The notes beneath the pieces are model-generated. The model was not told the origin of the DNA and ran no database searches. It saw only the letters and a list, made by a program, of their open reading frames with translations. Position numbers and translations under genes: made by a program. Of a stretch of DNA of 31,525 bases, positions 1 to 26,583 are shown one piece after another (the stretch's first letter is position 1; each line of letters begins with the position of its first letter). This stretch comes from a virus. The stretch lies in the IMG/VR virus record IMGVR_UViG_3300031566_003282, positions 1-31,525 of that record. One strand, given 5' to 3'.

Positions 1-780
1 ACTTTAATTAAACCTGATGAAATATATAATATTGCAGCACAAAGCCACGTTAGAGTTAGTTTTGATATACCTCAATTTACGGTACAAACAAATTCATTAG
101 GTGTTGTTAACATATTAGAGGCATATAAAAGAATTTGTCCTAACGCTAAATTTTACCAAGCAAGTTCGTCTGAAATGTTTGGATTAACAGTCGAAGATGA
201 TGGTTTCCAAAGGGAGAGTAGTATCATGAATCCTGTATCGCCTTACGGATGTTCTAAAGTATTCGGATATAATATTGTAAGACATTACAGAAGAGCACAT
301 AATCTTCATGCGGTAAATGGTATATTATTTAATCACGAATCACCAAGAAGAGGTAGTAATTTTGTAACTAATAAAGTTGTTAAAGCCGCGTGTTCTATTA
401 AATTAGGTCTTCAAGATAAATTAGAATTAGGTAATATGGATTCTTATAGAGATTGGGGACATTCTAAAGATTATGTTAAAGCGATGCACTCTATGTTAAA
501 TCACGATATTGCTGATGATTTTGTAGTGTCGACAATGAATACACATTCCGTTCGAGAGATGTGTGATGTTGTATTTAAATACTTAGATTTAGATTATAGA
601 GATTACGTAACACAAAACCCTAAGTTCTTAAGACCTGAGGAACTACCTTATCTTAAGGGTGACTCAACTAAAATTAGAGAAACTTTAGGGTGGAAACCTG
701 AATATACGTTTGAAGGAATGATGCATGAAATGTGTGACCATTGGATGGATGTCCTACAAGGAATTAAAAGTACTCGTTAA
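1..780 (+). CDS. gmd: GDP-mannose 4,6-dehydratase, 5' truncated by window edge
   Basis: Short-chain dehydrogenase/epimerase family enzyme that converts GDP-mannose to GDP-4-keto-6-deoxymannose with NADP. The reading frame is open from base 1, so the true start and the N-terminal Rossmann glycine motif lie outside the window. From base 1 I read EIYNIAAQSHV, then the serine-rich catalytic segment ASSSEMFG (about codons 54-61), then SPYGCSK (catalytic Tyr about codon 82, Lys about codon 86). The family signature NGILFNHESPRRG follows, with a C-terminal VREMCDVVFKYL / LGWKPEYTF region typical of GMD. It is the first of three sugar-nucleotide genes; the next starts 9 bases downstream. The methionine at 175 falls inside the conserved core and is not the start. 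The family is certain; the exact product sugar is inferred from the family. Confidence 0.93.
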   Translation, partial: TLIKPDEIYNIAAQSHVRVSFDIPQFTVQTNSLGVVNILEAYKRICPNAKFYQASSSEMFGLTVEDDGFQRESSIMNPVSPYGCSKVFGYNIVRHYRRAHNLHAVNGILFNHESPRRGSNFVTNKVVKAACSIKLGLQDKLELGNMDSYRDWGHSKDYVKAMHSMLNHDIADDFVVSTMNTHSVREMCDVVFKYLDLDYRDYVTQNPKFLRPEELPYLKGDSTKIRETLGWKPEYTFEGMMHEMCDHWMDVLQGIKSTR

Positions 781-789
781 AGATATAAA

Positions 790-1956
790 ATGGAAAAAAT
801 AGGTGTCATTGGTATCGGGAAGTTAGGTTTATCATTTTCACTACTTGCAGAACATAAGGGTTTTAAAGTATGGGGTTCAGACATATCTGAAGATTATATT
901 TCACATTTAAATCATAAGACATTAAAAAGTGATGAACCGTATGTTGAACAATACTTAAAAGATTCAAAAAACTTTTATCCGACAACTAATAATGTTGATG
1001 TCATAGGTATGTGTAAAACAATATTTACATTTGTACCAACACCATCATTACCAACGGGTGAATATGACCACACACATATTGAGGAAGTTATTGAGACTTT
1101 TGAGTCTGTATATAACCTCGGGATTGATGTGTCAGGTAAGACCCTTGTAATTGGTTGTACCACAAATCCAGGGTATGTTGATACTGTGACTGAAAGACTA
1201 AACATTTATGGTATAGATGTCGTATATAATCCCGAATTTATTGCTCAGGGTGATATAATTAACGGACTAAGACATTCCGACATTGTTTTAATTGGTTCTA
1301 AATCTAAAGAAGCCATTAAGAATGTTAAAAAGATTTATCGTCAATTAATGGATAGTTATACCCCAAACTTTAAAGTAATGTCAAATACTGCAGCAGAAAT
1401 CACTAAGATTTCAATCAACTGCTTTTTAACAACTAAAATATCGTTTGCCAATATGATTGGTGAAATTTGTCATAATACAGGTATTAGTAATGAGGTTGAA
1501 ACCGTATTATCCGCCATTGGTGATGATAGTAGAATAGGTAACAAATACTTAAAATATGGGTTTGGATTTGGTGGTCCGTGTCTACCGAGAGATAATCGAG
1601 CATTAGGTGTTCATGCGGAAAAAATGGGTTTAACACTTAATTTACCGATGGCGATTGACAAATTTAATGTCGAACACCATAAATTTTTGGTAAATAAATA
1701 CGTAAGAGAATTTCCTGACAGAGATACCACATTTGTATTTAACACGGTAACATTTAAAAAAGGAACTGACCAATTAACCGAATCACAACAATTAAACTTA
1801 TTATTATCATTATTATCGGAAGGGTATAATTGTGTGGTTATCGATATGGATACGGTTATTAAAAAATTAAAGAGTCCTTTGGAACGTACATGGGGGAATA
1901 GAATAAAGTTCCAACCAATTGGGACAATTGCCGATGGGGTAAAAATAATTTTATGA
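790..1956 (+). CDS. UDP-glucose/GDP-mannose dehydrogenase family protein
   Basis: NAD-dependent nucleotide-sugar 6-dehydrogenase, a four-electron oxidation of a sugar-nucleotide C6 alcohol to the uronic acid. The N-terminal Rossmann motif GIGKLG is at residues 8-13, and NPEFIAQGD follows at about 147-154. The central helix with conserved Lys and Asn (EITKISIN, about 203-210) is present, as is the catalytic-cysteine loop GFGGPCLPRD with Cys264. At 388 residues it is shorter than typical UGD enzymes (about 430); the shortening seems to lie in the C-terminal domain. It overlaps the next gene by four bases (ATGA), so translation is probably coupled. Substrate cannot be read from sequence: UDP-glucose is the common one, but GDP-mannose is plausible because both neighbours act on GDP-mannose. 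Confidence 0.87.
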   Translation: MEKIGVIGIGKLGLSFSLLAEHKGFKVWGSDISEDYISHLNHKTLKSDEPYVEQYLKDSKNFYPTTNNVDVIGMCKTIFTFVPTPSLPTGEYDHTHIEEVIETFESVYNLGIDVSGKTLVIGCTTNPGYVDTVTERLNIYGIDVVYNPEFIAQGDIINGLRHSDIVLIGSKSKEAIKNVKKIYRQLMDSYTPNFKVMSNTAAEITKISINCFLTTKISFANMIGEICHNTGISNEVETVLSAIGDDSRIGNKYLKYGFGFGGPCLPRDNRALGVHAEKMGLTLNLPMAIDKFNVEHHKFLVNKYVREFPDRDTTFVFNTVTFKKGTDQLTESQQLNLLLSLLSEGYNCVVIDMDTVIKKLKSPLERTWGNRIKFQPIGTIADGVKIIL

Positions 1957-2963
1957 AAAAAATAGTAGTACTCGGTGGTGGTGGATTCATAGGAGGACAC
2001 CTCTCAAAAAAATTAAAAGATAAAGGACATAATGTCACAATTTGTGACCTCAAGAAACACGAGTATTGGAACCACGAAGACATTTGTGATAAGTTTATTG
2101 TTGGTGATTTAAGAGACCCCAATGTGGTATCCAATGTTATATCTGAAGGTGTCGATGAAGTTTACCAACTTGCTGCAGATATGGGTGGAGCAGGTTACAT
2201 CTTTACGGGTGATAATGATGCTAATGTAATGCATAACTCAGCGTTAATTAATTTAAACGTGATACAGGAATGTACCAATAAAAAAGTTGGTAAAGTTTTC
2301 TATTCATCATCAGCATGTATGTATCCCGAACATAATCAACTAAACCCAGACAACCCTAACTGTGAAGAATCTTCAGCCTATCCCGCAAATCCAGACTCCG
2401 AGTACGGATGGGAAAAACTATTCTCTGAAAGACTATTTTTAGCATTTAACCGTAACTATGGGTTGGACGTAAGAATCGCTCGTTTTCATAATATTTTTGG
2501 ACCTATGGGGACATGGACAGGTGGAAAGGAAAAGGCACCTGCTGCGATGTGTAGAAAAGTTGCTGAAGGACTAAACGAAATTGAAGTATGGGGAGATGGT
2601 CAACAGACACGTTCATTCCTTTATGTTGATGAATGTGTTGATGCAGTATTAAAATTAATGGAATCAGACTTTTTAGGTCCCGTTAATATTGGGTCAGAAG
2701 AAATGGTAACCATTAATGAACTGGCCCAGATGTCTATTGATATATCAGGTAAAAAGATTAACATTAAGAATATTGGAGGTCAGGAATTTGTAGATAAATA
2801 CGGGTTCTCTTGTCCTGTAGGAGTTAGAGGTAGAAACTCTGACAATAAACTTTATAAGAAAAAAATAGGTTGGGAAGTTTCTCAACGATTAAGAGTAGGT
2901 ATGGGAAAAACCTATACTTGGATTAGCGAACAAGTTAATAAAAAAAATCTCATTAAAAATTAA
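1953..2963 (+). CDS. GDP-mannose 3,5-epimerase-like NAD-dependent epimerase
   Basis: Extended short-chain dehydrogenase/reductase with strong resemblance to plant-type GDP-mannose 3,5-epimerase, which makes GDP-L-galactose/GDP-gulose. Visible motifs: the dinucleotide motif GGGGFIG (Gly8, Gly11, Gly14), LAADMGGAGYI (73-83), SSSACMYPE containing catalytic Cys122, the YGWEK Tyr151/Lys155 pair, RFHNIFGPMGTW (177-188), and GGKEKAPAAMCRK (190-202) with the second acid/base Lys194. QTRSF and GVRGRNSDN are also family signatures. All residues needed for C3/C5 epimerisation appear intact, so it should be active. The start overlaps the upstream dehydrogenase stop. Other 4-keto or GDP-sugar epimerases are possible, but the Cys/Lys pair argues for this subfamily. 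Confidence 0.88.
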   Translation: MKKIVVLGGGGFIGGHLSKKLKDKGHNVTICDLKKHEYWNHEDICDKFIVGDLRDPNVVSNVISEGVDEVYQLAADMGGAGYIFTGDNDANVMHNSALINLNVIQECTNKKVGKVFYSSSACMYPEHNQLNPDNPNCEESSAYPANPDSEYGWEKLFSERLFLAFNRNYGLDVRIARFHNIFGPMGTWTGGKEKAPAAMCRKVAEGLNEIEVWGDGQQTRSFLYVDECVDAVLKLMESDFLGPVNIGSEEMVTINELAQMSIDISGKKINIKNIGGQEFVDKYGFSCPVGVRGRNSDNKLYKKKIGWEVSQRLRVGMGKTYTWISEQVNKKNLIKN

Positions 2964-4714: not shown

Positions 4715-5787
4715 TGGACCAAAATACAATTCAAAAAGTTGAAAAATCGATTGGAATCTTAAAAGATTCACAATCCAAAGTTTTCTTTTTGGTACAAGAT
4801 ACCAAAGGAAATGCAAAAGGTGCTATCCGTTACATTTATCAAATGGCTAAAGCCCTTAAAGATGGCGGATTAAATCCAGTGATTCTACATGAATCAAATA
4901 ATTACACAGGTGTTGGAGCCTGGTTAGGTGAAGAATATATGGAAATGGAACACGTTTCTATTGAAGGTAAAAATTTACAAATTTCACCTGAAGATTTCGT
5001 TGTGATTCCAGAATTATATGGACATGTGATGGACCAATTGAAAGATTTGCCGTGTGGTAAAATTGTTTTGGCTCAAGCATATGACCATATCTTCGAGACC
5101 TTACAGCCTGGAACTACATGGTCACAATACGGGTTCTTAAAGTGTATCACTACAAATGAGAAACAATTAGAACAAATCAAATCATATATGAAAAATATTA
5201 GTTTTGATATTATTGAACCTTTGATTCCAAGTGAATTTAATAAAAAACCAAAACCCTCTAAACCTATCATTTCAATTCACACACGTGAACAAAGAGATAC
5301 TATGAAAATCATTAAAGGTTTTTATTTAAGATACCCTCAATATAGATGGATTACTTTTAGAGATATGAGAGGTTTAACACAAGAAGAATTTGCAGAGTAT
5401 CTAAAGGATTCGTTTGTTTCCGTGTGGGTAGATGATACCTCAGGGTTCGGAACGTTCCCTATTGAGTCTATGGCAAGTAGAACACCTGTAATTGGTAAGG
5501 TCCCAAACTTGAAACCTGATTGGATGAATGAAAAGAATGGTATTTGGACGTATGAATTAAATAATATGGTTGATATTATTGCTGAGTTTGTACAGAACTG
5601 GTTAGAAGATAATATTTCAAACCAACTGTACGATGAATGTCTATTAACAGCAGAAACGTATAAAGACGAATCGTTATTTAATAATAATGTTACGGGACTT
5701 TTTAAAGGATATATGAATAAAAGATTAGAGTTATTTGAAACTCAGTTAGATAAACTTAAAGTTGAAGAATCAGAAGATGGAAAATAA
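4714..5787 (+). CDS. glycosyltransferase, GT-B fold (GT4-like)
   Basis: A 357-residue predicted sugar transferase. The N-terminal half has the KVFFLVQDTKGNAKGAIRY strand-loop-helix (22-40), resembling the glycine-bearing acceptor-domain loop of GT-B enzymes. The C-terminal half has the donor-binding signature GFGTFPIESMASRTPVIG (244-261), where Glu251 corresponds to the conserved Glu of GT4-type enzymes contacting the nucleotide sugar. I take the ATG at 4714 as start, because it overlaps the preceding stop (TGATG); a TTG one codon earlier is less likely. The downstream glycosyltransferase overlaps its 3' end by 11 bases. With the GDP-sugar enzymes upstream it probably transfers a phage-specified sugar; acceptor (virion protein, DNA or host envelope) unknown. 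Confidence 0.78.
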   Translation: MDQNTIQKVEKSIGILKDSQSKVFFLVQDTKGNAKGAIRYIYQMAKALKDGGLNPVILHESNNYTGVGAWLGEEYMEMEHVSIEGKNLQISPEDFVVIPELYGHVMDQLKDLPCGKIVLAQAYDHIFETLQPGTTWSQYGFLKCITTNEKQLEQIKSYMKNISFDIIEPLIPSEFNKKPKPSKPIISIHTREQRDTMKIIKGFYLRYPQYRWITFRDMRGLTQEEFAEYLKDSFVSVWVDDTSGFGTFPIESMASRTPVIGKVPNLKPDWMNEKNGIWTYELNNMVDIIAEFVQNWLEDNISNQLYDECLLTAETYKDESLFNNNVTGLFKGYMNKRLELFETQLDKLKVEESEDGK

Positions 5788-6583
5788 TTTAGACGTATCG
5801 GTAATATTACCAATCGAGAGTTCAAAACACAAAAATTTTATAGAATTGTTTAGTAATGCAATTCTATCAATTAAACAACAAACTGTCGGAGTAAAAGAAG
5901 TTGTTATCGTTCATTCTGGTGAAGAATCATTAGAATCTATTCTAACCTCTTACGATTACAGTGGATTAACCGTTAACCTAGTAAAAAACTATGGTAAAAC
6001 AGATTTTGCATCTCAGATGAACTTAGGTGTTGAGAGTGCGAATTCTGAATGGGTTTCATTTTTAGAGTTTGACGATGAATATTCATCAATATGGTTTAAA
6101 AATGTTAAACGTTATGCTGAAGCATATCCTGAGTTCGATTCATTTTTATCATTAGTTATTGATACTGACGATAAAGGAGCATTTGCAGGATTTACTAATG
6201 AGGCGACATTTGCAGCTTCAATGAATACCGTTATCGGTATTTTAACAAATGAAGTTCTATTGTCGTATCAAAATTTCCAAACTAGTGGTATGGTTATTAA
6301 AAAATCGACATATCAATCATATGGTGGTTTCAAACCATCAATGAAATTGACATTCGTTTATGAATTCTTATTGAGGTTAACCTATAACTCGGTAAATATG
6401 ATGACAATCCCTCGTATAGGTTACAAACATACGAACCTTAGAGAAGGTTCTATTTTTTGGAACTATAAAAATGGTGAACAAAGAATGACAGATGACGAGG
6501 TTAGATTTTGGTTGGAATCTGCCAAGAAGGAACATTTCTTTGTTGACGATAGAAACATAAAGTATGAACCAACCGATGTTTAA
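5777..6583 (+). CDS. glycosyltransferase family 2-like, GT-A fold
   Basis: A 268-residue GT2-like transferase. VSVILPIES opens the Rossmann-like domain (8-16), VVIVHSGE follows at about 42-49, and the region ASQMNLGVESANSEWVSF (78-95) matches the conserved segment before the metal-binding motif, here FDDE (98-101) in place of DxD. The later SYGGFKPS and helical EFLLRL match the usual acceptor side of GT2 enzymes. I place the start at the ATG at 5777, which gives an N-terminus directly before the first beta strand and an 11-base overlap with the upstream gene; the in-frame TTG at 5762 would add five residues of no obvious use. It is cytoplasmic, with no membrane segment. Donor probably one of the cluster's GDP-sugars; acceptor unknown. 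Confidence 0.82.
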   Translation: MENNLDVSVILPIESSKHKNFIELFSNAILSIKQQTVGVKEVVIVHSGEESLESILTSYDYSGLTVNLVKNYGKTDFASQMNLGVESANSEWVSFLEFDDEYSSIWFKNVKRYAEAYPEFDSFLSLVIDTDDKGAFAGFTNEATFAASMNTVIGILTNEVLLSYQNFQTSGMVIKKSTYQSYGGFKPSMKLTFVYEFLLRLTYNSVNMMTIPRIGYKHTNLREGSIFWNYKNGEQRMTDDEVRFWLESAKKEHFFVDDRNIKYEPTDV

Positions 6584-7347
6584 TGTTTCAAGAAATAACA
6601 GGTACCACAACAACTGGTGATACGGAAACGATACCGAAAAAACGGGGTCGTAAACCAAAAACCACCACAAACTATTTTGATGTCCGTGAAGAGACTGCAG
6701 TTAGGATGTTCCTGACTGCCTCCACATGGAATGAGAAAAATCAAATATATAACGAATTCCTCAAAGCACCTTTAGATAAGATGATTGAGTCTATTATTCG
6801 TAGGTATAAGTTATATCGTAAGGATATGGAGTTTATTGAAATACATCAAGATACACATTCGTTTTTAATAACAAAGGTAGATAAGTTTAGACCCTCTAAA
6901 GGTAAAAAGGCATACTCTTATTTTGGTACAATATGTAAGAACTATCTTATGGGTCAAATTATTAAAGACCAAAAATTACAAAACAGAAAAATATCTTATG
7001 AAGATATCTCATCATCATTAGAGAATAGACCAGACTTAATTTATCACTTAGAATTTGATGTAGTTGAGCCTTCAGAAATTATTAAAAAATTTATTAATGA
7101 AATGGAATTGTTTATGAAAACAACCAATCTCAACGTTAATGAAGTAAAATTAGGATACGCACTAATCGACCTATTTAGTAATTATGATAATATTTTTATA
7201 GGTACAGATAATAATAAATTTAATAAAAATATAATTTTATTATCACTTAGAGAAATGACTAATTTGTCAACTAAAGAAATTAGAACATCAATGAAAAAGT
7301 ATCGAACTCTTTATTATAACTTAGTTAAGAGAATTAATAACATATAA
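6583..7347 (+). CDS. late-transcription sigma factor, T4 gp55-like
   Basis: A 254-residue protein resembling gp55-type sigma factors of T4-like phages, which redirect host RNA polymerase to late promoters together with the sliding clamp. The core at about 56-130 has EFLKAPLDKMIESIIRRY, then HSFLITKVDKFRPSKGKKAYSYFGTICKNYL, the sigma region-2-like block (KG.KAYSY...KNYL) characteristic of these proteins. The N-terminus carries a basic KKRGRKPK segment (19-26) like an AT-hook. The C-terminal 120 residues are helical (region 3/4-like) but I cannot assign them. The start overlaps the upstream stop (TAATG). A short AT-rich gap with a TATTTATA box follows, so this ends the first transcription block. 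Good family match by eye, not verified by search. Confidence 0.75.
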   Translation: MFQEITGTTTTGDTETIPKKRGRKPKTTTNYFDVREETAVRMFLTASTWNEKNQIYNEFLKAPLDKMIESIIRRYKLYRKDMEFIEIHQDTHSFLITKVDKFRPSKGKKAYSYFGTICKNYLMGQIIKDQKLQNRKISYEDISSSLENRPDLIYHLEFDVVEPSEIIKKFINEMELFMKTTNLNVNEVKLGYALIDLFSNYDNIFIGTDNNKFNKNIILLSLREMTNLSTKEIRTSMKKYRTLYYNLVKRINNI

Positions 7348-11474: not shown

Positions 11475-11482
11475 TATTTATA
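11475..11482 (+). promoter_or_regulatory. TATTTATA box, candidate phage late promoter
   Basis: TATTTATA followed by GTAAAAAC, ending 13 bases before the ATG at 11496 in the 22-base gap after the spike-like gene. This is the usual spacing of the box in this window. Confidence 0.45.
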
Positions 11483-16686: not shown

Positions 16687-18465
16687 TTATCTTAAAGAGT
16701 TAATGTCAAACGTTCTAACACCATCAACCATGATAACACCATAGAAACGGTTATTAACCATTTTCTTAGCGTATCTCGTCATAATACCCTTTATCGGAGT
16801 AAAGTTGAACGGGTTGTACATTGTAGGAGTCAACTGTAATGGTACATAAGGTGCGTAAACGTAACCTGTGTCCAATAAAGAAGAACCTTTATGTCCAATC
16901 AATAATTGATTTGGTGGGAAGTAAGGGTCACGATATACTTGATATCTACCTGATAACGTTCCTACTCTTTCAATACCCATGTTATACTGGTCCTGGTCAG
17001 GAGCAGCGTTTGAAACGTGGAAGTACTCTAAATCGTCAAAGATAGCTGAGATTTCAGAAGAACATACAATCCAGTTAGCTCCACCTCTTAAAGTAGATTT
17101 GTGGATTTGAGCAGATAATTGATTTACCGCAGTAATCAAAGTCTGATTCCAATCTTTCTGGTTGTAGTTTACTGAACCGTTAGAAACTCTTTTCCAACCG
17201 TTGTAATCCCATCTTAATGACCATGCCGCACCTTTTCTCAAATCTCTTAAGATTTCTCTATCGATTTCAGCCGCAACTTGTTCAGATAATAAAGCTGTTA
17301 ATTCAGCTTCAGCATCGATGTTATGGAATGCAGACACGTCTTGTGCCAATTCTGGAGACCATTGTGCTCTTAATTTTCTTTCTGTTACAGAAACTGTAAC
17401 TGACTCAAGGTCGAAAGAAACTTCACCAATTTGGTCTTCAAATTCTAAACTTTGATAAACTCTGTAAGACGCAGTGAACACAGGTGCCGCAGCAAATGTT
17501 GTACCAGTATAACCATCTAATGATGATGTACCAATAGCCGCTGGTGTTGATGTGTCAACAGAAATATAAACAACGCCGTTAGCGTCACATGTATCGTAGA
17601 ATTTACCACCTGGTCCTTTGTTAGTACCACTATAGAAAGTAGTTTGTGTTTCAGAACCGTACTCAACAATACCTTTACCGTATTTCTGAGTTACTAAGTT
17701 AAAGTTAAAGAATATAGTTGCACCAGCCACACCATAAGGTCCTGATACCTCTAATGATGCTAAGAAATCCTCAGTATCCATCTCTTGTCCATCAGGACCG
17801 ATTAACTTACCAGCACCAGCTGATGAGAAACCTGACATAGCTATAAGTACAGTTCTTACGTTACCTGTATAAGAAGTAGAAGGTGCCGTGTACAATTGAC
17901 TACCATTCCATAATTGATTTACCGCAGTTACAGAAATCGCTGAAAACGCTCCTTTAGAATAATCGAATAAACCTGCAGGGTCTGAATTAGGTACAGAACC
18001 TTCATAGAATTGGTCATATAAATTTTTCTGACCAGCAGGGTAACCCGCTCCTACCGCTTGTGTTTCAGCACCAGGTGCTCCATAAGGTGCGTAATGTTCG
18101 TCACCAGTAACCAACCCACTTCCTTGGTAACCTTGAATTTTAGGTACAAAATAGAACAATTTACCGATTGGTAAGTTCATTGCTTGTACAGATACGATAT
18201 CGTTAGCCAATAATTTAGAAAATACTCTTCTAACTATTGGAAAGACTACAGTTTCGAATGAACCTGAGCCGTCTGAAGACGATGCTTCATTAATTAAGTG
18301 AGATGCTTGGTTTTCATATAGCTGTGCTACGTTTTCTCTCATGTGACCTTTTAAGCCATCTAAGAAACCAAGTTTGTCCCATTTGTTTATTGTGTCTTCT
18401 TTGATAACTTTAAGGTGTTTTAACCCTACGTTACCAACTAGACCTGATTCTAATAATGCTCCCAT
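16687..18465 (-). CDS. major capsid protein, T4 gp23-like
   Basis: A 592-residue HK97-fold capsid protein of the T4 gp23 type, a little longer than T4 gp23 (521). The N-terminus (residues 1-60) is a propeptide-like region with EDTINKWDKLGFLDGLKGH and ends SHLINE60, followed by ASSSDGSGSF; LINE-A fits the (I/L)xE cleavage rule of gp21-type proteases and the size of T4's 65-residue propeptide. FPIVRRVFSKLLANDIVSVQ and GKLFYFVPK follow, as in gp23. The C-terminal half has LRAQWSPELAQDVSAFHNID and AEAELTALLSEQVAAEIDRE, the conserved helix of the family, then YAPYVPLQLTPTMYNPF. It follows the scaffold gene by 30 bases and ends at a strong terminator, consistent with high expression. Confidence 0.94.
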   Translation of the reverse strand: MGALLESGLVGNVGLKHLKVIKEDTINKWDKLGFLDGLKGHMRENVAQLYENQASHLINEASSSDGSGSFETVVFPIVRRVFSKLLANDIVSVQAMNLPIGKLFYFVPKIQGYQGSGLVTGDEHYAPYGAPGAETQAVGAGYPAGQKNLYDQFYEGSVPNSDPAGLFDYSKGAFSAISVTAVNQLWNGSQLYTAPSTSYTGNVRTVLIAMSGFSSAGAGKLIGPDGQEMDTEDFLASLEVSGPYGVAGATIFFNFNLVTQKYGKGIVEYGSETQTTFYSGTNKGPGGKFYDTCDANGVVYISVDTSTPAAIGTSSLDGYTGTTFAAAPVFTASYRVYQSLEFEDQIGEVSFDLESVTVSVTERKLRAQWSPELAQDVSAFHNIDAEAELTALLSEQVAAEIDREILRDLRKGAAWSLRWDYNGWKRVSNGSVNYNQKDWNQTLITAVNQLSAQIHKSTLRGGANWIVCSSEISAIFDDLEYFHVSNAAPDQDQYNMGIERVGTLSGRYQVYRDPYFPPNQLLIGHKGSSLLDTGYVYAPYVPLQLTPTMYNPFNFTPIKGIMTRYAKKMVNNRFYGVIMVDGVRTFDINSLR

Positions 18466-20208: not shown

Positions 20209-20928
20209 TTAATTTCCTAAATAATCGGATAATCTTCTCATTAAGTCAATAGACGCACCCATAGCACCATTAAATTTTGGTTCAGAAATTGGTTTTTTCT
20301 CTTCGTCTAAGCTTTCTTCATACTTCATCTTATCACCTTTATCTAAGAATAGATACGCCCCTGGTGTTGATGGTGACGATACTAAGTCAAAACAAATCAA
20401 TTCAAAATCTTCCTGTACTTCGTTTCTTTCACCCTTACGAGCTAAAGAACCCACACCACGTGATGAAACACCCATAGTGACACCTTGTCTCATTAAGTTA
20501 GCTGCTTGGTCACCAGGACACGAAACAACACCACTACTATGAAACCCTGGAGATGTTAATAATTTTAACTTACCCATTAAAGTACTACCTTCCCACCACA
20601 TATCCGTGATAAGGTGAGATACACGGTCCAAATCAATTAATGATGATTCAGGGTGATTTAATTCGGAAATCGATAGACCTTTTTTAATTGCTCCTTGATA
20701 TCTTTCGGCTTCTCTACGTAAAATCTTTTCAGGATAAACCCTACCATTTCTATTAGGTGTATCAAACTTTTGTAATACAGCATAAAACTCAAATGGTTTA
20801 GAGTGGTCTAACTGTCCATACGATTCTTTTATAACGTCAGCATTTCTACTATCATTTGGATTCACAAAACCTGCGTCCCACTCAATCAATATTCCTTTAC
20901 CCGTATCGTTTGGTCCTAATATTTTCAT
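20209..20928 (-). CDS. prohead protease, T4 gp21-like
   Basis: A 239-residue serine protease of the phage prohead type (herpesvirus-assemblin-like fold). It shows FDTPNRNGRVYP (55-66), the catalytic His92 in SELNHPESS (88-96), and the catalytic serine in MGVSSRGVGS (152-161; Ser155 or Ser156), with an acidic ICFDLVSSPSTPGA segment (178-191) completing the fold. It should cleave scaffold and capsid propeptides after (I/L)xE sites; the capsid protein has LINE at 57-60. The gene lies upstream of the scaffold gene as in T4. A TATTTATA box sits 15 bases before its ATG. Its own C-terminal region after residue 195 is charged and may be autoprocessed. Confidence 0.92.
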   Translation of the reverse strand: MKILGPNDTGKGILIEWDAGFVNPNDSRNADVIKESYGQLDHSKPFEFYAVLQKFDTPNRNGRVYPEKILRREAERYQGAIKKGLSISELNHPESSLIDLDRVSHLITDMWWEGSTLMGKLKLLTSPGFHSSGVVSCPGDQAANLMRQGVTMGVSSRGVGSLARKGERNEVQEDFELICFDLVSSPSTPGAYLFLDKGDKMKYEESLDEEKKPISEPKFNGAMGASIDLMRRLSDYLGN

Positions 20929-20943
20929 TGTAAAATTCTTTAT

Positions 20944-20951
20944 TATAAATA
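20944..20951 (-). promoter_or_regulatory. TATTTATA box upstream of prohead protease gene
   Basis: Minus strand reads AAAGTATTTATAATAAAG; the box ends 15 bases before the ATG at 20928. Same orientation and spacing class as the other boxes. Confidence 0.45.
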
Positions 20952-21369: not shown

Positions 21370-21377
21370 TATAAATA
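21370..21377 (-). promoter_or_regulatory. TATTTATA box upstream of the 129-residue gene
   Basis: Minus strand reads TAGTATTTATAGTTAAAT; the box ends 14 bases before the ATG at 21355. It overlaps nothing but the 22-base gap after the 145-residue gene. Confidence 0.45.
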
Positions 21378-21815
21378 CTAAACTTTTTTTGTTTTTGACT
21401 TTGTCATGGTAAAATACTTGGAACCCATTAACTCATCTTGGTATATTGATTTACAAATTTGTTTAACTCTATCTCTTAATATTATAGATTTAAAATCGAT
21501 TTCAGATTTCATAAATAAAGTTATTTCTAAATTCATAAAACTCTTTTTACCCATTTGAACCCCACTACTACGTAAATCTAAATCCACGATATTATGACTC
21601 TCAAACATGAATGGGTCTACACACTCTATTAAATTATGTTTTATTTGTCGATTAACATTACCCGTTATTCTATCCCAATGACCGTTTTCTATTGTGGGTT
21701 GTACCCACGATTGTATAGAAATGTATAGTGATTTAAAATTTTGTGCGTCAACGGTTCCGTAACTACACTTTGCATTATCGAAGATTTCTAACTTCGAAGT
21801 TTTACCTTTTTTCAT
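21378..21815 (-). CDS. hypothetical protein, 145 residues
   Basis: Unrecognised protein in the head module. It starts MKKGKTSKLEIFDNAKCSYG and includes an aromatic-rich middle (SIQSWVQPTIENGHWDRITG), a beta-like segment (FMNLEITLFMKSEIDFKSII) and a basic C-terminus ending in lysines (TMTKSKTKKV). Two or three cysteines are scattered, without a metal-binding pattern. Gene order places it where T4 has small core genes (67, 68), but I see no similarity by eye. It shares a 105-base divergent regulatory region with the bS21 gene on the opposite strand. The short leader is AT-rich with no SD. Confidence 0.75.
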   Translation of the reverse strand: MKKGKTSKLEIFDNAKCSYGTVDAQNFKSLYISIQSWVQPTIENGHWDRITGNVNRQIKHNLIECVDPFMFESHNIVDLDLRSSGVQMGKKSFMNLEITLFMKSEIDFKSIILRDRVKQICKSIYQDELMGSKYFTMTKSKTKKV

Positions 21816-21835: not shown

Positions 21836-21888
21836 ATAGTTTATTTGTTTAAATTATAGTTAATAAACTATGGTAAGTCAAAATTGAC
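21836..21888. promoter_or_regulatory. operator-like inverted repeats in the bS21/145-residue divergent region
   Basis: The 105-base gap 21816-21920 holds a perfect 10-bp inverted repeat, ATAGTTTATT (21836-21845) and AATAAACTAT (21862-21871), with a 16-base spacer that includes a further ATAGTT half-site (21856-21861). A second near-palindrome, GTCAA-AA-TTGAC, follows at 21877-21888. Both lie between the two divergent starts, as expected for a regulator site. No regulator can be named. Confidence 0.4.
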
Positions 21889-21899
21889 GAAATAAAATG

Positions 21900-21907
21900 T
21901 ATTTATT
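21900..21907 (+). promoter_or_regulatory. TATTTATT box upstream of bS21 gene
   Basis: TATTTATT followed by ATAAT, 13 bases before the ATG at 21921. Variant of the box seen before other genes. The leader from here to the ATG (ATAATACAGATAT) has no Shine-Dalgarno sequence. Confidence 0.42.
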
Positions 21908-21920
21908 ATAATACAGATAT

Positions 21921-22112
21921 ATGTTAATAGTAGAAATCAAAAAAGGGGAGAGCATCGAAAAAGCTTTGAAGCAATATAAGTTCAAAGTTAATAAAACCAA
22001 ACAAACTATAATGCTCCGTGAAGGACAAGAGTTTCAAAAACCTTCAGTAAAAAGAAGGAAGCAAAAACAAAAAGCAATATATCTTGAAATGAAAAAGGGT
22101 TTAGAAAACTAA
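21921..22112 (+). CDS. rpsU: phage-encoded ribosomal protein bS21 (Bacteroidota type)
   Basis: A 63-residue bS21 homologue. MLIVEIKKGESIEKALKQYK (1-20) matches the 'MLII.VK.GESI+RALK+YK' start of bacterial S21, the middle has KVNKTKQ, and the C-terminal half has EGQEFQKPSVKRRKQKQKA (34-52), matching 'R..F.KPSV.RR...QKA.Y' of Bacteroidota proteins, with Tyr54 in KAIYLEM. bS21 sits at the 30S platform beside the 16S 3' end, where in Bacteroidota it helps hide the anti-Shine-Dalgarno sequence. The gene is plus-strand, alone, inside a minus-strand head module, with its own box upstream and a terminator that overlaps its stop. It has no SD in its leader. Phage bS21 genes are known; this gives the virus a means to alter host ribosomes. 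Confidence 0.88.
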   Translation: MLIVEIKKGESIEKALKQYKFKVNKTKQTIMLREGQEFQKPSVKRRKQKQKAIYLEMKKGLEN

Positions 22113-22124
22113 ACCCTTTTTTTT
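22092..22124. terminator. bidirectional terminator overlapping the bS21 stop
   Basis: A 13-bp perfect stem, AAAAAGGGTTTAG (22092-22104) and CTAAACCCTTTTT (22109-22121), with an AAAA loop and T residues through 22124. It includes the bS21 stop codon and ends at the stop of the convergent 244-residue gene. The flanking A/T tracts let it work both ways. Confidence 0.85.
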
Positions 22125-22857
22125 ATAACCCTGAATTTAATTGTCGTAGTTTGTAGAGGTTAACTAAATCGTTTTCACTCTCATTAATTTTTTGGATAGT
22201 CTTAGTTAGACTTTCTATAAGTTCTTTATCTTCGTTCTCGTTAAGAGTTCCTTGTAATTTAGAAACAACTGACTCACGTAATGTTAACATTTCGGATTGT
22301 ATTTCTAATGTACTCATAGACAATAAACTTTTTAATTCTTCTTTTTCAGACTCCTCAATGTTACCATATTCTTGATTGAATGTGTTTGAGGCAATTTTTA
22401 ACATTGTTGAAAGTGGTAAGTTAATAGACTCTGTGATTGTCTGCTCAACATTTTCAGTAATGATATTCTTTTTAATTCTATTTTTAGATTCTAAAACTTT
22501 TTCTAAATTTTTAAAAGATTTCTCATATAAAACATAATCGATATCAGAATAATCGTTCTCAACTTTTTTACCAATAAGTTCATCAGCCCAATCAGATAAC
22601 GTTTGAATATCTCTTTGATTTTTCTCAATAATAGAGTTTAACTTCTCAAATGATTCAGAAAGATAATCAGATACAATTTCAGGATTCATACCTTTTTTTG
22701 AGTTTAACTCGTCGTAGATATAAAATGCCTCTGCCATTGTTTTATTGGATAAAACGGTTTCTTTAAATTTCTTCATTGCCGGTTTAAACGATGGTTTACC
22801 GTATAAAGAAACTAACCCTTTTTCTATTTTTGATTTTATTTGACCTAATTTATTCAT
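22123..22857 (-). CDS. hypothetical helical protein in head module, possible prohead core component
   Basis: A 244-residue, almost wholly alpha-helical charged protein located immediately downstream of the portal gene, where T4 has the small core genes 67 and 68. N-terminal segment IKSKIEKGLVSLYGKPSFKP, then KKFKETVLSNKTMAEAFYIY, and long coiled-coil-like helices (SESFEKLNSIIEKNQRDIQT; NLPLSTMLKIASNTFNQEYG). Tripeptides of the (L/I)xE kind occur (e.g. LNENEDKEL). Composition and place fit a core or scaffold component, but I do not recognise the family. Preceded by a box containing both TATTTATA and TATAAATA sequences 12 bases before the ATG. Confidence 0.68.
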   Translation of the reverse strand: MNKLGQIKSKIEKGLVSLYGKPSFKPAMKKFKETVLSNKTMAEAFYIYDELNSKKGMNPEIVSDYLSESFEKLNSIIEKNQRDIQTLSDWADELIGKKVENDYSDIDYVLYEKSFKNLEKVLESKNRIKKNIITENVEQTITESINLPLSTMLKIASNTFNQEYGNIEESEKEELKSLLSMSTLEIQSEMLTLRESVVSKLQGTLNENEDKELIESLTKTIQKINESENDLVNLYKLRQLNSGL

Positions 22858-22869
22858 AACTATTTTATT

Positions 22870-22877
22870 TATAAATA
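22870..22877 (-). promoter_or_regulatory. TATTTATA box upstream of the 244-residue gene
   Basis: Minus strand reads GGATATTTATAAATAAAATAG; the box ends 12 bases before the ATG at 22857. TATTTATA and TATAAATA overlap here, so orientation is ambiguous. Confidence 0.42.
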
Positions 22878-22880
22878 TCC

Positions 22881-24755
22881 TTATTTAAGTAACTCATTCA
22901 ACTTTTCTCCTATTTCACCTAAAGACTTACGTCCTTTAGATAAATCTATAGTCTCATTTTGACCAAATAAAGTGGAATCTTCCAAAATTAAGTCAAGGTC
23001 TTTATTCTTAACCAGTCCTTCAGGTGTTACCTCAGTTTCACCTCCACCACCGATTTCAGAACCTGTATCAGTACCTAAATCAGTACCTAAATCAGTACCT
23101 AAATCAGTACCTAAATCAGAACCGAAGTCAGAACCACCACCAAAATCATCAGTACCCATATCCCCACCAGATTCTTCACTTTCAGCTGGTTTTTGTCCTT
23201 TCTGACCATATAACTTATCTAGGTTATCGAATATACCTGTACTTAGAATAACTTCTTGTGTTTTTTCTAATTCACCGGCAACTGCTCTTTCAATTCTTTG
23301 TTGTTGAATATCTAATTTAATTTCCTCATCAGAGAAACCAAGAATATGTTTCTTAGCCCATGATGAAGATACTGGTTGTATACCATTTCCTGGGTCACTA
23401 ACCGCATCACGATATAATGAAATTTTTTGTGTCCATTGCTCAATCTTAAGTAAATCTGCTTGTGTCGATGGATTAGTTAATCCTAATGTAAAGTTATCTA
23501 ACTCATCTTCAAATCCTAAAATATATAAATGGATAACTGCAATTTTATTTAACTCCTGAATCATAGATTTTTGAATTCTATTGATTGTACGAGCAAAACG
23601 AATATCCTGTAATGCTAAGTTTTTTCCTTCACCTGTAACCTCTTCAAAACCTAAGAATGCCTTAGGAACACGAAGTGCCGTCAATAGTTTCTTTTGGATA
23701 TACTCAATATCTGCAATTTCAGATAGATTAGTAGCCCCAGGTAGGGTATCTATTGGATTAGGTGCGTTAGGGTCTCTAACAGGAATAAAGTAATCCTGGT
23801 CAACCGCCATTTGATTCATACGTAAATCTACATTACCCGTTTGAGGGTCAGCAACTTGGTCACGTTTGAATTTATTGGCAACACGTTGTACATACGGTTC
23901 AACATCTTTGTCATCCATATTACCTACGAAGACTTTAAACACTCTTCTTTCAGGTGCTCTTGATGTTCTATATATTAACATCGCATCTTCAGAAAGAATA
24001 AGTTGTTTCCAAATTCTTCTGGCTTTTTCTAACATAGAAGTACCATAAGGAAGTTTACGGTCATCACCTAATAATCTAAAGTGTGCCATTTCCCAAGTAT
24101 TAAACTCTAAGTCTTTAACCTTCCATTTGAATTTTAACGACTCATCAGATTCTGTTGTTGGAGTATTGATACCATATTGTGATGGAGTAGATTTCATACC
24201 TCTCTCCAATCTTTCAATTTCTATGTTTGGAAGTTGTTGTCCTCCCATTATACCCTTTTCAGGGTCAAGTTTTAAGTAAACAAAATTGTCCCCATACTTA
24301 CAAGTATTCCTTGTCCACATAGGTAAATTAGTATTGATATCAAGTCTATTGTTGAATAAGTCACCAAGTATCGATTTAATTCGTTTGCTCTCTGAGTAAA
24401 TTTGTAAAATATGTCCATCTTCGTTTGTTGTTGTAGATTCTTCTGAATAAATGTCTAATGCTGCAGATATCTCAGGAGTAAATTCCATACTCTCGTAATC
24501 GTAAAATGCAGCTAATCTTGTTGGTTCATAATATACGGCTTGAGTGTAAAGGTTATTCTCAACCTTTTGCCATTGTGCGCCCAAATAAAGTGTTTGTTGT
24601 GCTTGAAGTTTTTCTCTTTCAAACTCACTTTTATCTTTAGTCTTTAGAAGTTCTTTCTTATCAAACTTATAGACAGGCGGTTGCTGGTCCAAAGTTGAAT
24701 TGGGACCAAAGACTTTACTTAATCTTTGCCATACTGTGTAATTATTCTGTGCCAT
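22881..24755 (-). CDS. portal protein, T4 gp20-like
   Basis: A 624-residue portal protein that forms the dodecameric DNA channel at the capsid vertex. Recognised from MAQNNYTVWQRLSKVFGPNS, the conserved PEISAALDIYSEESTT segment near residue 96, GDNFVYLKLDPEKGIMGG, the RRVFKVFVGNMDDKDVEPYV block, PGATNLSEIADIEYIQKKLL and PKAFLGFEEVTGEGKNLALQ, typical of gp20. The C-terminus has an unusual Gly/Asp/Thr low-complexity linker with tandem LGTD units (DNA repeat 23069-23116) before a short helical tail (GEIGEKLNELLK). It follows the large terminase gene by 49 bases, with no sheath or tube gene between. A TATTTATA box is in that gap. Confidence 0.92.
   Translation of the reverse strand: MAQNNYTVWQRLSKVFGPNSTLDQQPPVYKFDKKELLKTKDKSEFEREKLQAQQTLYLGAQWQKVENNLYTQAVYYEPTRLAAFYDYESMEFTPEISAALDIYSEESTTTNEDGHILQIYSESKRIKSILGDLFNNRLDINTNLPMWTRNTCKYGDNFVYLKLDPEKGIMGGQQLPNIEIERLERGMKSTPSQYGINTPTTESDESLKFKWKVKDLEFNTWEMAHFRLLGDDRKLPYGTSMLEKARRIWKQLILSEDAMLIYRTSRAPERRVFKVFVGNMDDKDVEPYVQRVANKFKRDQVADPQTGNVDLRMNQMAVDQDYFIPVRDPNAPNPIDTLPGATNLSEIADIEYIQKKLLTALRVPKAFLGFEEVTGEGKNLALQDIRFARTINRIQKSMIQELNKIAVIHLYILGFEDELDNFTLGLTNPSTQADLLKIEQWTQKISLYRDAVSDPGNGIQPVSSSWAKKHILGFSDEEIKLDIQQQRIERAVAGELEKTQEVILSTGIFDNLDKLYGQKGQKPAESEESGGDMGTDDFGGGSDFGSDLGTDLGTDLGTDLGTDTGSEIGGGGETEVTPEGLVKNKDLDLILEDSTLFGQNETIDLSKGRKSLGEIGEKLNELLK
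23069..23116 (-). repeat. tandem 12-bp repeat in portal gene (LGTD linker)
   Basis: Four perfect copies of a 12-base unit (plus strand CAGTACCTAAAT) lying in frame in the portal gene, with degenerate copies on both sides (23057-23068 and 23117-23128). They encode repeated Leu-Gly-Thr-Asp in the C-terminal linker. Confidence 0.95.
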
Positions 24756-24767
24756 TATAAGTTTTTA

Positions 24768-24775
24768 TATAAATA
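24768..24775 (-). promoter_or_regulatory. TATTTATA box upstream of portal gene
   Basis: Minus strand reads TACTATTTATATAAAAACTT; the box ends 12 bases before the ATG at 24755, in the 49-base gap after the terminase gene. Confidence 0.45.
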
Positions 24776-24804: not shown

Positions 24805-26583
24805 TTATTTTTTTCCGCCCAATAACCATAAATAGTTCTGATAGTCACTTTTTGTCGCCTGACCACCACTACGTTGTTGATTATAATCTCCTCCGTTATA
24901 CATGCTCAATGATGGGTTGAAATCATTAATAGGGTTTCTAACCGCACTTTCCTGTACTGTCCAACTATCTACCATGGCCTTAGTTTGGTTAGTAACTTTT
25001 TCTAAATTAGTGAATGAATTCTCACCAACATAAATCGCCATAGCCATTGCCATAATTAAATCATCATGTTGGCCTTTCATGTGGTCAGGTCTACCGTTAA
25101 CATAAACAAACGTATTTAACTCATTTAACAAACGAGATGAACGAACTGCGAAACTATGTCTTAACGCTTCTTCAAATGATGCAATAATCTGAACACGCTT
25201 GGTGTTAAAGTTTAACCCCGGTGTTTTATCTACTATATTTGCATTGTATCTCCACTTATCGGCAACATTAACACCATCAATATATAAATTCTTATATCCC
25301 AACTCCATTAATTTCCTTGCAGTTGAAACTCCCATACCACCAGTGATATCAATAACCACAAAAGCGTTATACATAGTTGCCCATTTAAATGCAATCTCAG
25401 CCGCAACGTCAGGTGGAATCTTACCTAAGTATTCTAACACCTGTTCTCTCTCGTCAAAGTCAATTATACAGAATGTTGTGAAATCCTCACTATCACCACG
25501 AGAAACGTCAATACCCATAATATATTTATGACTTTCAATAGGTTCTTTCCATTGCCACATTGCACCACCCATAAATTTATTTTCAGGTGGGATAATAAAA
25601 TTCTCTTTAATAGACTCAACAGTTTCATTAGGGATGACACTATCACCAGAACCTAAGAAATTACATTCAAGCTCCTGAGCTATTTTACGTCTATCAAATT
25701 TTAACTTTTTAGCCATGTTTTCAAACCAAGAAGAGTAAGGACGATATCCTTCATTAAACCTTTCTTTAATTTCCACAAAATCTCTTAACATTGGGTCAAT
25801 AGACTCATATCGTATAATGATATCATCATCAACGTATTCATCTCTATTTAACATATAATGAACAATATCCTTACATTTTATAAGTTGCAAGTCTTTGGCA
25901 TAACGAGGGTCTCGGTACCAATACATTTCAGTAATTTTGAAATCATTCATTCCTCGAAGTGATTGTTCGTAAATTGAATAGTAAATAGCATCAAATCCGT
26001 TAGGTGTTGATACTACGATTACCTTACCACCCGTAGATAGAGAGGCCATACACGCAGACCAAAAGTCATCGTCAGCATCGATAAACGCTGCTTCATCAAA
26101 AATAAGTATAGTAGGTGTATAACCACGCAAAGCATCTTTAGAGGTTGCAACGGCTTTAACCTCACATCCGTTAGATAACTTAAAATGTCTTTGTGAATTT
26201 TTTTCTTGAGAAAATTTAACACCCAACCATTCAGGCCATTGGTCAACAAACGCTCTTACCTTATTTGCAAATTCCATGGAAGTATCCAATTTATTTGCAA
26301 TGATTAGAAGTTTTTCAGGTTGTGATTTTTTGGCTGTGATTAATTTTTTAGATGCCCAAGCCGCGGTAACTGTTGATACACCCGCTTGACGATATTTTAA
26401 CGCTATGTTTTCTTCATAGGTGTCGTAATCGTTAATTAAATGTTCTTGGTCTGGAAATAATTCTAAAGGAACGTATCGTAATTGAGTATTGTCGTAAGTC
26501 TGTAGGTAAGTCTTTAATGCATAAGGTGTGTCCTTAATGATTTTCGCATATTCTACTAGTGCTTTTTCTTTTGAGATACTCAT
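24805..26583 (-). CDS. large terminase subunit, T4 gp17-like
   Basis: A 592-residue DNA-packaging motor with ATPase and nuclease domains. Walker A-like KYRQAGVSTV (63-72) has the R-Q-x-G-x-S-T pattern of terminases; Walker B is TILIFDEAAF (158-167) with Asp163 and catalytic Glu164; VVSTPNG (190-196) is the coupling motif. The C-terminal RNase H-like nuclease has acidic strands IMGIDVSRGDSEDF and FVVIDITGGMGV, plus GQHDDLIMAMAMA near the end. Length and order match T4 gp17 (610). The ATPase-side lysine of classical Walker A is absent, as is usual for this clade. Directly upstream of the portal gene. Confidence 0.95.
   Translation of the reverse strand: MSISKEKALVEYAKIIKDTPYALKTYLQTYDNTQLRYVPLELFPDQEHLINDYDTYEENIALKYRQAGVSTVTAAWASKKLITAKKSQPEKLLIIANKLDTSMEFANKVRAFVDQWPEWLGVKFSQEKNSQRHFKLSNGCEVKAVATSKDALRGYTPTILIFDEAAFIDADDDFWSACMASLSTGGKVIVVSTPNGFDAIYYSIYEQSLRGMNDFKITEMYWYRDPRYAKDLQLIKCKDIVHYMLNRDEYVDDDIIIRYESIDPMLRDFVEIKERFNEGYRPYSSWFENMAKKLKFDRRKIAQELECNFLGSGDSVIPNETVESIKENFIIPPENKFMGGAMWQWKEPIESHKYIMGIDVSRGDSEDFTTFCIIDFDEREQVLEYLGKIPPDVAAEIAFKWATMYNAFVVIDITGGMGVSTARKLMELGYKNLYIDGVNVADKWRYNANIVDKTPGLNFNTKRVQIIASFEEALRHSFAVRSSRLLNELNTFVYVNGRPDHMKGQHDDLIMAMAMAIYVGENSFTNLEKVTNQTKAMVDSWTVQESAVRNPINDFNPSLSMYNGGDYNQQRSGGQATKSDYQNYLWLLGGKK

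Follow-up and report, generated by a model that had tools for sequence, protein, structure and literature searches.

Gene content and setting of the bS21 locus

The window (i.e. the whole stretch of DNA analysed) is a complete IMG/VR record, a linear fragment of 31,525 bases in which a tRNA scan detected no tRNA genes. Its relevant features are given in Table 1. The T4-type head genes (terminase, portal, protease and major head protein) are all carried on the minus strand, between nt 16687 and 26583, and the gene for ribosomal protein bS21 (rpsU) is the lone plus-strand gene within this block. When phage records were ranked by query coverage x identity, the best for the terminase was Flavobacterium phage immuto, at 31% identity. 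Elsewhere in the window, nt 175–2963 (+) and 5777–6583 (+) carry sugar-nucleotide genes (UDP-glucose/GDP-mannose dehydrogenase, NAD-dependent epimerase) and a glycosyltransferase, which perhaps serve surface sugars.

Table 1. Coordinates of genes and sequence elements in the window.
Feature	Position (nt)	Strand	Details
Phage bS21 (rpsU) CDS	21921–22112	+	63 aa; ATG at 21921; Tyr54 is codon 54
Hypothetical gene, divergent neighbour of bS21	21378–21815	-	no family
Hypothetical gene between bS21 and portal	22123–22857	-	TATTTATA at -20
Portal protein (T4 gp20 type)	22881–24755	-	phrog_213, E 3e-67; TATTTATA at -20
Terminase large subunit	24805–26583	-	phrog_2, E 2e-42
Head maturation protease	20209–20928	-	phrog_207, E 1e-42; TATTTATA at -23
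Major head protein	16687–18465	-	phrog_138, E 6e-66
Possible sigma70-family (gp55-like) factor	6583–7347	+	highly conserved gene; TIGR02937, E 9e-4, below cut-off
TATTTATT, promoter-like word, late-promoter candidate	21900–21907	+	-21 from bS21 start
TATTTATA copies before late genes	24768–24775; 22870–22877; 21370–21377; 20944–20951; 11475–11482	-; -; -; -; +	
Predicted bS21 5' leader, no SD	21913–21920	+	about 8 nt
Overlapping sigma70-like match, TTGACG-17-TATAAT	21884–21912	+	11/12 matches; among the best four of the window
Divergent sigma70-like match, TTGACT-17-TATAAT	21853–21881	-	candidate for gene 21378–21815; GTCAAA block kept in related intergenic regions
Terminator-like 13-bp hairpin, T-run on both strands	22092–22121		between convergent genes; -14.8 kcal/mol (+), -15.5 kcal/mol (-)

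The same arrangement recurs in related phages. Among 80 phage loci fetched by the portal protein of the window (the portal-relative sample), bS21 lies opposite to the portal gene in 64, and nearly all of the remaining 16 end too soon past the portal gene. The one clear exception is locus L231, which continues for 3,973 bases after the portal gene without a bS21. A comparable setting was described by Chen et al. in 2022 for bS21 phages predicted to infect Bacteroidetes, where bS21 is flanked by two hypothetical genes and consistently transcribed in the opposite direction to terminase, portal, protease and capsid (PMC9723584). The window resembles those phages in both respects, as well as in its aromatic residue 54, Flavobacteriia bacterial relatives and myovirus head genes.

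Identity and relationships of the phage bS21

The product of nt 21921–22112 is a bS21 of Bacteroidota type, with tyrosine at position 54. It passes the family thresholds of both Pfam PF01165 (42.5 bits, cut-off 27) and NCBIfam TIGR00030 (33.3, cut-off 28.95), and matches phrog_21469, 'ribosomal protein S21' (E 1.4e-5). It aligns without gaps to the bS21 of F. johnsoniae (7jil chain z) and to a second bS21 chain (9i5v, similar to a Porphyromonas protein in L149), with residue 54 being Tyr. These two are its nearest solved relatives, well before those from other phyla (E 1.6e-11 for the F. johnsoniae protein, 9e-6 for the next group). The AlphaFold2 model has a mean pLDDT of 90.8, with helices at residues 12–35 and 41–62. 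The top PDB matches found by Foldseek with this model were bS21 chains, at weak scores (E 0.09, TM about 0.4), which is unsurprising, as nothing fixes the angle between the two helices when the protein is not in the ribosome. The original prediction, that this virus carries its own S21 and that the protein has Tyr54, is confirmed in both parts.

For comparison, 74 phage loci were fetched by bS21 (67 usable), together with 80 cellular bS21 loci, almost all of which carry a Bacteroidota label; as the latter were drawn with a Bacteroidota query, the host set speaks for that phylum only. All 73 distinct host proteins have Tyr54, as do 84 of the 87 distinct phage proteins, with His in the remaining three; the residue is thus conserved rather than a chance occurrence. 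A similar picture emerges from Chen et al., with an aromatic residue 54 in all of their phage bS21 proteins and Tyr in 54 of 61 (PMC9723584). Arg46 and Ala52, like Tyr54, are near-invariant in phages and hosts, and all three lie in the C-terminal part, which is turned towards the 16S tail. Consistent differences between phage and host proteins are found at positions 5, 21, 23, 24, 27 and 28, in agreement with the first-helix divergence described by Chen et al.; from host to phage the changes include F to V/I at 23, D/E to I/Y at 24, G to K/R at 27 and T/V/A to Q at 28, and Arg21 is frequently lost in the phage proteins. L068–L072 and L074 encode another kind of bS21-like protein, in which the N-terminal reading frame is longer and a Phe lies near the Tyr54 position.

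In a tree built on 64 columns, with the root not placed, the phage proteins form one clade (support 100/99) apart from the sampled Bacteroidota hosts. As a single, well-supported and separate clade they look like an old phage lineage rather than a recent capture. The Bacteroidota affinity that had been predicted for the protein stands as regards the gapless alignment, Tyr54 and the nearest solved relatives, but not as regards placement, since the phage proteins fall in a clade of their own and not inside the host clade; a sister position is unproven without an adequate outgroup. A Bacillus fragment tried as root was useless, as it fell inside the Bacteroidales on a long branch.

Chen et al. 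suggested a role for phage bS21 inside ribosomes, where it would favour the transcripts of the phage (PMC9723584). Their proposal is that the phage version selects phage mRNA by way of its diverged, mRNA-facing N-terminal helix, while the C-terminal part binds the ribosome. The consistent differences at positions 23, 24, 27 and 28, the frequent loss of Arg21 and the separate clade are what such a role would lead one to expect, but drift, or evasion of a host factor, may also account for these changes, and any element of the mRNA recognised by these positions is hypothetical. As an explanation for the phage gene, selection of mRNA by this helix is judged rather unlikely.

Absence of a Shine-Dalgarno sequence

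In F. johnsoniae, rpsU is autoregulated via an extended Shine-Dalgarno (SD) sequence, its translation being raised by a Y54A change or by loss of bS21, while most other host genes are SD-less (McNutt et al. 2023, PMC9976891). The phage protein shares Tyr54 and the same gapless frame of 63–64 residues with its counterpart in that system, but differs in what precedes the gene. The pairing energy between each 25-nt leader and the 16S tail ACCUCCUUUCU was computed, a value of -13 kcal/mol being the level typical of autoregulated host rpsU. The bS21 leader of the window gives -0.5 kcal/mol, i.e. it has no SD, and an extended SD of the F. johnsoniae type (below -13 kcal/mol) is absent from it. A Chryseobacterium-type alternative anti-SD was ruled out, the leader being without TGAGA.

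The missing SD is a class property of phage rpsU. Among 71 distinct phage leaders (median -0.5 kcal/mol) no value is as low as -13 and four are -7 or lower, compared with a median of -16.9 and 47 of 66 at or below -13 among distinct host rpsU leaders (Mann-Whitney p 6e-19, a descriptive value only, as the sequences inside each set share ancestry). About 29% of the sampled Bacteroidota host leaders are likewise without a very strong SD. The four phage leaders with a moderate SD are those of L223 (-12.2 kcal/mol), L066 (-9.3), L204 (-8.2) and L186 (-7.4); in three of them the SD sits between TATTTATA (see below) and the start codon. Two cellular loci labelled Candidatus Pelagibacter (L132) and Limnohabitans (L086) carry a Flavobacteriales-type rpsU with an extended SD, and are probably mis-binned metagenome contigs.

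SD-less leaders are general in these genomes. Only one of the 34 leaders of other genes in the window reaches -7 kcal/mol or below (median -1.45, shuffled -1.5), and the same level is reached by 2.7% of 405 phage gene leaders (shuffled 1.8%) and by 3.9% of 331 leaders of host-locus genes other than rpsU (shuffled 3.6%). It had been predicted that host rpsU keeps a strong SD, that the phage gene lacks one, and that most phage genes have SD-less, A-rich leaders. The first two points are borne out by the figures above. The third holds for the window as a whole, where gene leaders are 49% A, but the bS21 leader itself is AT-rich and not strictly A-rich.

These counts bear directly on the mechanism first put forward for the phage protein, in which a Tyr54-bearing bS21 masks the anti-SD, giving SD-less phage messages an advantage over those of the host. 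Its two premises are sound, in that the protein does have Tyr54 and the phage leaders do lack an SD. However, host bS21 already has Tyr54 and host genes other than rpsU are equally SD-less, so that nothing would change for phage relative to host messages. A hidden anti-SD cannot tell phage from host mRNA when both are SD-less, and the sole host message that it distinguishes is rpsU. A bias of host ribosomes towards SD-less phage mRNA is therefore not supported by the leader comparison, and this reading is considered very improbable.

Promoter words upstream of phage and host rpsU

Host rpsU leaders carry the word TAnnTTTG in 39 of 78 cases, mostly near -37, and in the Flavobacterium examples it lies exactly at -37, with the SD core at -16 to -15. 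Before phage rpsU this host-type word occurs only at chance level (1/28, and 1/50 among the portal relatives). In the phage gene, both the TAnnTTTG near -37 and the extended SD of a host-type rpsU are missing, and TATTTATT is present at -21. Both the TATTTATT element and the lone plus-strand position of bS21 were missed in the original prediction.

The same or a closely similar word recurs in the window. Either TATTTATA or TATTTATT is found at -20 to -23 from the portal and protease genes, two more genes of the head region, gene 11496, gene 30379 and bS21. Eight of the 11 exact copies of TATTTATA in the window precede a gene start on the same strand, seven of them by 12–23 nt and one by 41 nt, and the shorter word TATTTAT occurs in eight leaders where 0.25 would be expected. 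In the rpsU leaders of the portal relatives, TATTTAT lies between -30 and -8 in 44 of 50 distinct sequences, mostly at -19 to -27 (shuffled mean 2.2), while it is present in none of the 78 host rpsU leaders. The other phage set has it in 1 of 28 rpsU leaders, that one being the sequence type of the window itself. That set is SD-less by different means, in some cases by a start that overlaps an upstream gene. In one such group of phages (L006, L011–L034, L054 and others) the bS21 start is overlapped or abutted by a same-strand upstream gene, which suggests coupled translation in place of an own promoter.

Taking relatives and window together, TATTTATA is present in 82 of 462 distinct gene leaders, compared with 4.7 after shuffling. 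In the cultured Flavobacterium phage immuto (MW353177; 40 kb covered), seven of the eight plus-strand copies are followed 12–25 nt later by a gene, terminase and portal being among them. Judged by its placement, TATTTATA looks like a late-promoter box. Immuto thus resembles the window in its T4-type head genes, in TATTTATA before late genes and in a sigma-like gene (see below), while a search for bS21 in this genome at E up to 0.01 found none. A second enriched leader word, AAATAAAC, was seen in the gene leaders of L156–L235 (46, compared with 3.3 shuffled).

The consensus of T4 late promoters is TATAAATA, a box found in only 8 of the 462 leaders, against the 82 with TATTTATA. Both systems have T4-type head genes, and in both the only clear element ahead of late genes is an AT-only box of 8 bp (PMC2988020); the word itself differs, being TATTTATA in the window and TATAAATA in T4. 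A possible reader of the word is encoded at nt 6583–7347. Foldseek aligned its model, which is of modest confidence, to region 2 of RpoS (TMt 0.6, 95 columns) and to viral sigma factors, all with poor E-values, and a profile search against solved structures gave nothing relevant. A relative of this gene is present in immuto. On these weak matches, the product could be a late sigma factor that reads TATTTATA.

In T4 the TATA box lies about one helical turn upstream of the transcription start (PMC2988020), and the native rpsU leader of F. johnsoniae is 25 nt long (PMC9976891). Applied to the phage gene, either the T4 geometry or a calibration on F. johnsoniae (25-nt leader, box at -37) would give a bS21 mRNA leader of about 8–9 nt. 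A host SD, whose core starts between -16 and -12, would not fit into a leader of this length, and the short predicted leader would supply a physical reason for the missing SD. A different start, leaving the bS21 mRNA almost leaderless, would be possible if the overlapping match TTGACG-17-TATAAT were used. This start is not preferred, since sigma70-like matches are no commoner in the window than in shuffles (71 and 79, respectively) while TATTTATA is strongly position-specific. In L170, L203 and L206, TATTTAT lies just 11–12 nt ahead of the rpsU start codon, and the mRNA of these genes might begin at the AUG itself, i.e. be leaderless.

The sharing of one promoter word with the head genes agrees with published transcriptomes of related phages, in which bS21 is expressed late and together with the head genes (PMC9723584). 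The expectation that phage bS21 is made late in infection is indirectly supported by both lines of evidence. The data are also consistent with a less purposeful origin of this arrangement, namely that late leaders in these phages are all short and AT-rich by default, and that escape from feedback was never under selection at bS21. As described above, few leaders in the window or among phage genes at large reach -7 kcal/mol, and rpsU shares its promoter word with the head genes. As phage genes are generally SD-less, the missing SD at bS21 need not reflect selection for escape. Against this, the few phage lineages that carry an SD before rpsU show that one is possible there, and a default origin leaves the functional consequence uncontradicted. 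Such an origin is possible, though on the doubtful side.

A proposed feedback-immune bS21

The explanation towards which the evidence leans, if only slightly, is that a working bS21, expressed from a late promoter of the TATTTATA type and immune to feedback, takes the place of the host copy, with host rpsU staying repressed as a result. Late in infection, alongside expression of the head genes, the phage protein would be translated from a message with a very short, SD-less leader. Because this message is without the extended SD by which host rpsU senses a shortage of bS21, its synthesis would lie outside the host feedback. The protein would then enter the host 30S subunit, where Tyr54 and the conserved C-terminal helix would keep the 16S tail tucked away. 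Entry into ribosomes has a precedent in the bS21 of Pelagibacter phage HTVC008M, which enters E. coli 70S ribosomes, as reported in PMC9723584; compared by description alone, the two cases are alike in that bS21 is phage-encoded, and differ in host phylum. Ribosomes carrying phage bS21 would look replete to the host circuit, and since phage-supplied bS21 would be read as sufficiency, host rpsU would stay repressed while the phage protein accumulates. Phage bS21 would thus probably be made freely with the host copy shut down, and the ribosome population would shift one way, to the phage version. Any further gain from that version probably lies in the diverged first helix (positions 21–28), as Chen et al. 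proposed. The earlier claim that the phage copy escapes autoregulation is upheld to the extent that, from its upstream anatomy, the gene appears to lie outside the SD feedback, as do its counterparts across the relatives.

A simpler role would be supply or repair, with the phage copy only replacing bS21 that has been lost, degraded or become limiting, and so sustaining SD-less initiation. Ribosomes without bS21, or without its C-terminus, do initiate poorly on SD-less mRNA, and McNutt et al. raised, as a speculation, the degradation of host bS21 by phages (PMC9976891). Host autoregulation, however, would already restore bS21, and no bS21 protease was identified in the current study. Taken as the whole explanation this is unlikely, although it is not exclusive of replacement by a feedback-immune copy and is compatible with it.

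McNutt et al. further speculated that the autoregulation of rpsU is a counter-defence (PMC9976891). The working proposed here for the feedback-immune copy is the reverse of that idea, and could explain why Tyr54 has been kept in nearly all phage copies alongside a diverged first helix. Extended to the whole group, phage bS21 would be a feedback-immune mimic that turns host autoregulation on the host and converts its ribosomes one way, as a general strategy of the large phage-bS21 clade in Bacteroidota viruses; this wider claim is offered tentatively, its prospects being somewhat short of even.

The core of these observations (a phage bS21, Tyr54, hijack late in infection) was already published in 2022, and the window fits that account closely (PMC9723584). 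The searched text of that paper contains no leader, SD or promoter analysis, and a limited literature search returned no paper on phage rpsU leaders or promoters. What is new, on the sequence comparisons made here, is the class-wide replacement of the host regulatory leader, promoter and SD together, in phage rpsU.

Phages very often carry bS21, and the rpsU of Bacteroidota hosts is among the few worked-out feedback loops built on specialised ribosomes. In uncultured myoviruses of Bacteroidota, TATTTATA can serve as a late-promoter candidate, and its presence may allow late genes to be spotted from sequence. Since the phage copies, as a class, are without the host promoter and SD, the vague notion of a 'ribosome hijack' becomes a specific prediction, that during infection host rpsU would stay off while phage rpsU stays on, and this could be tested with the existing F. 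johnsoniae reporters.
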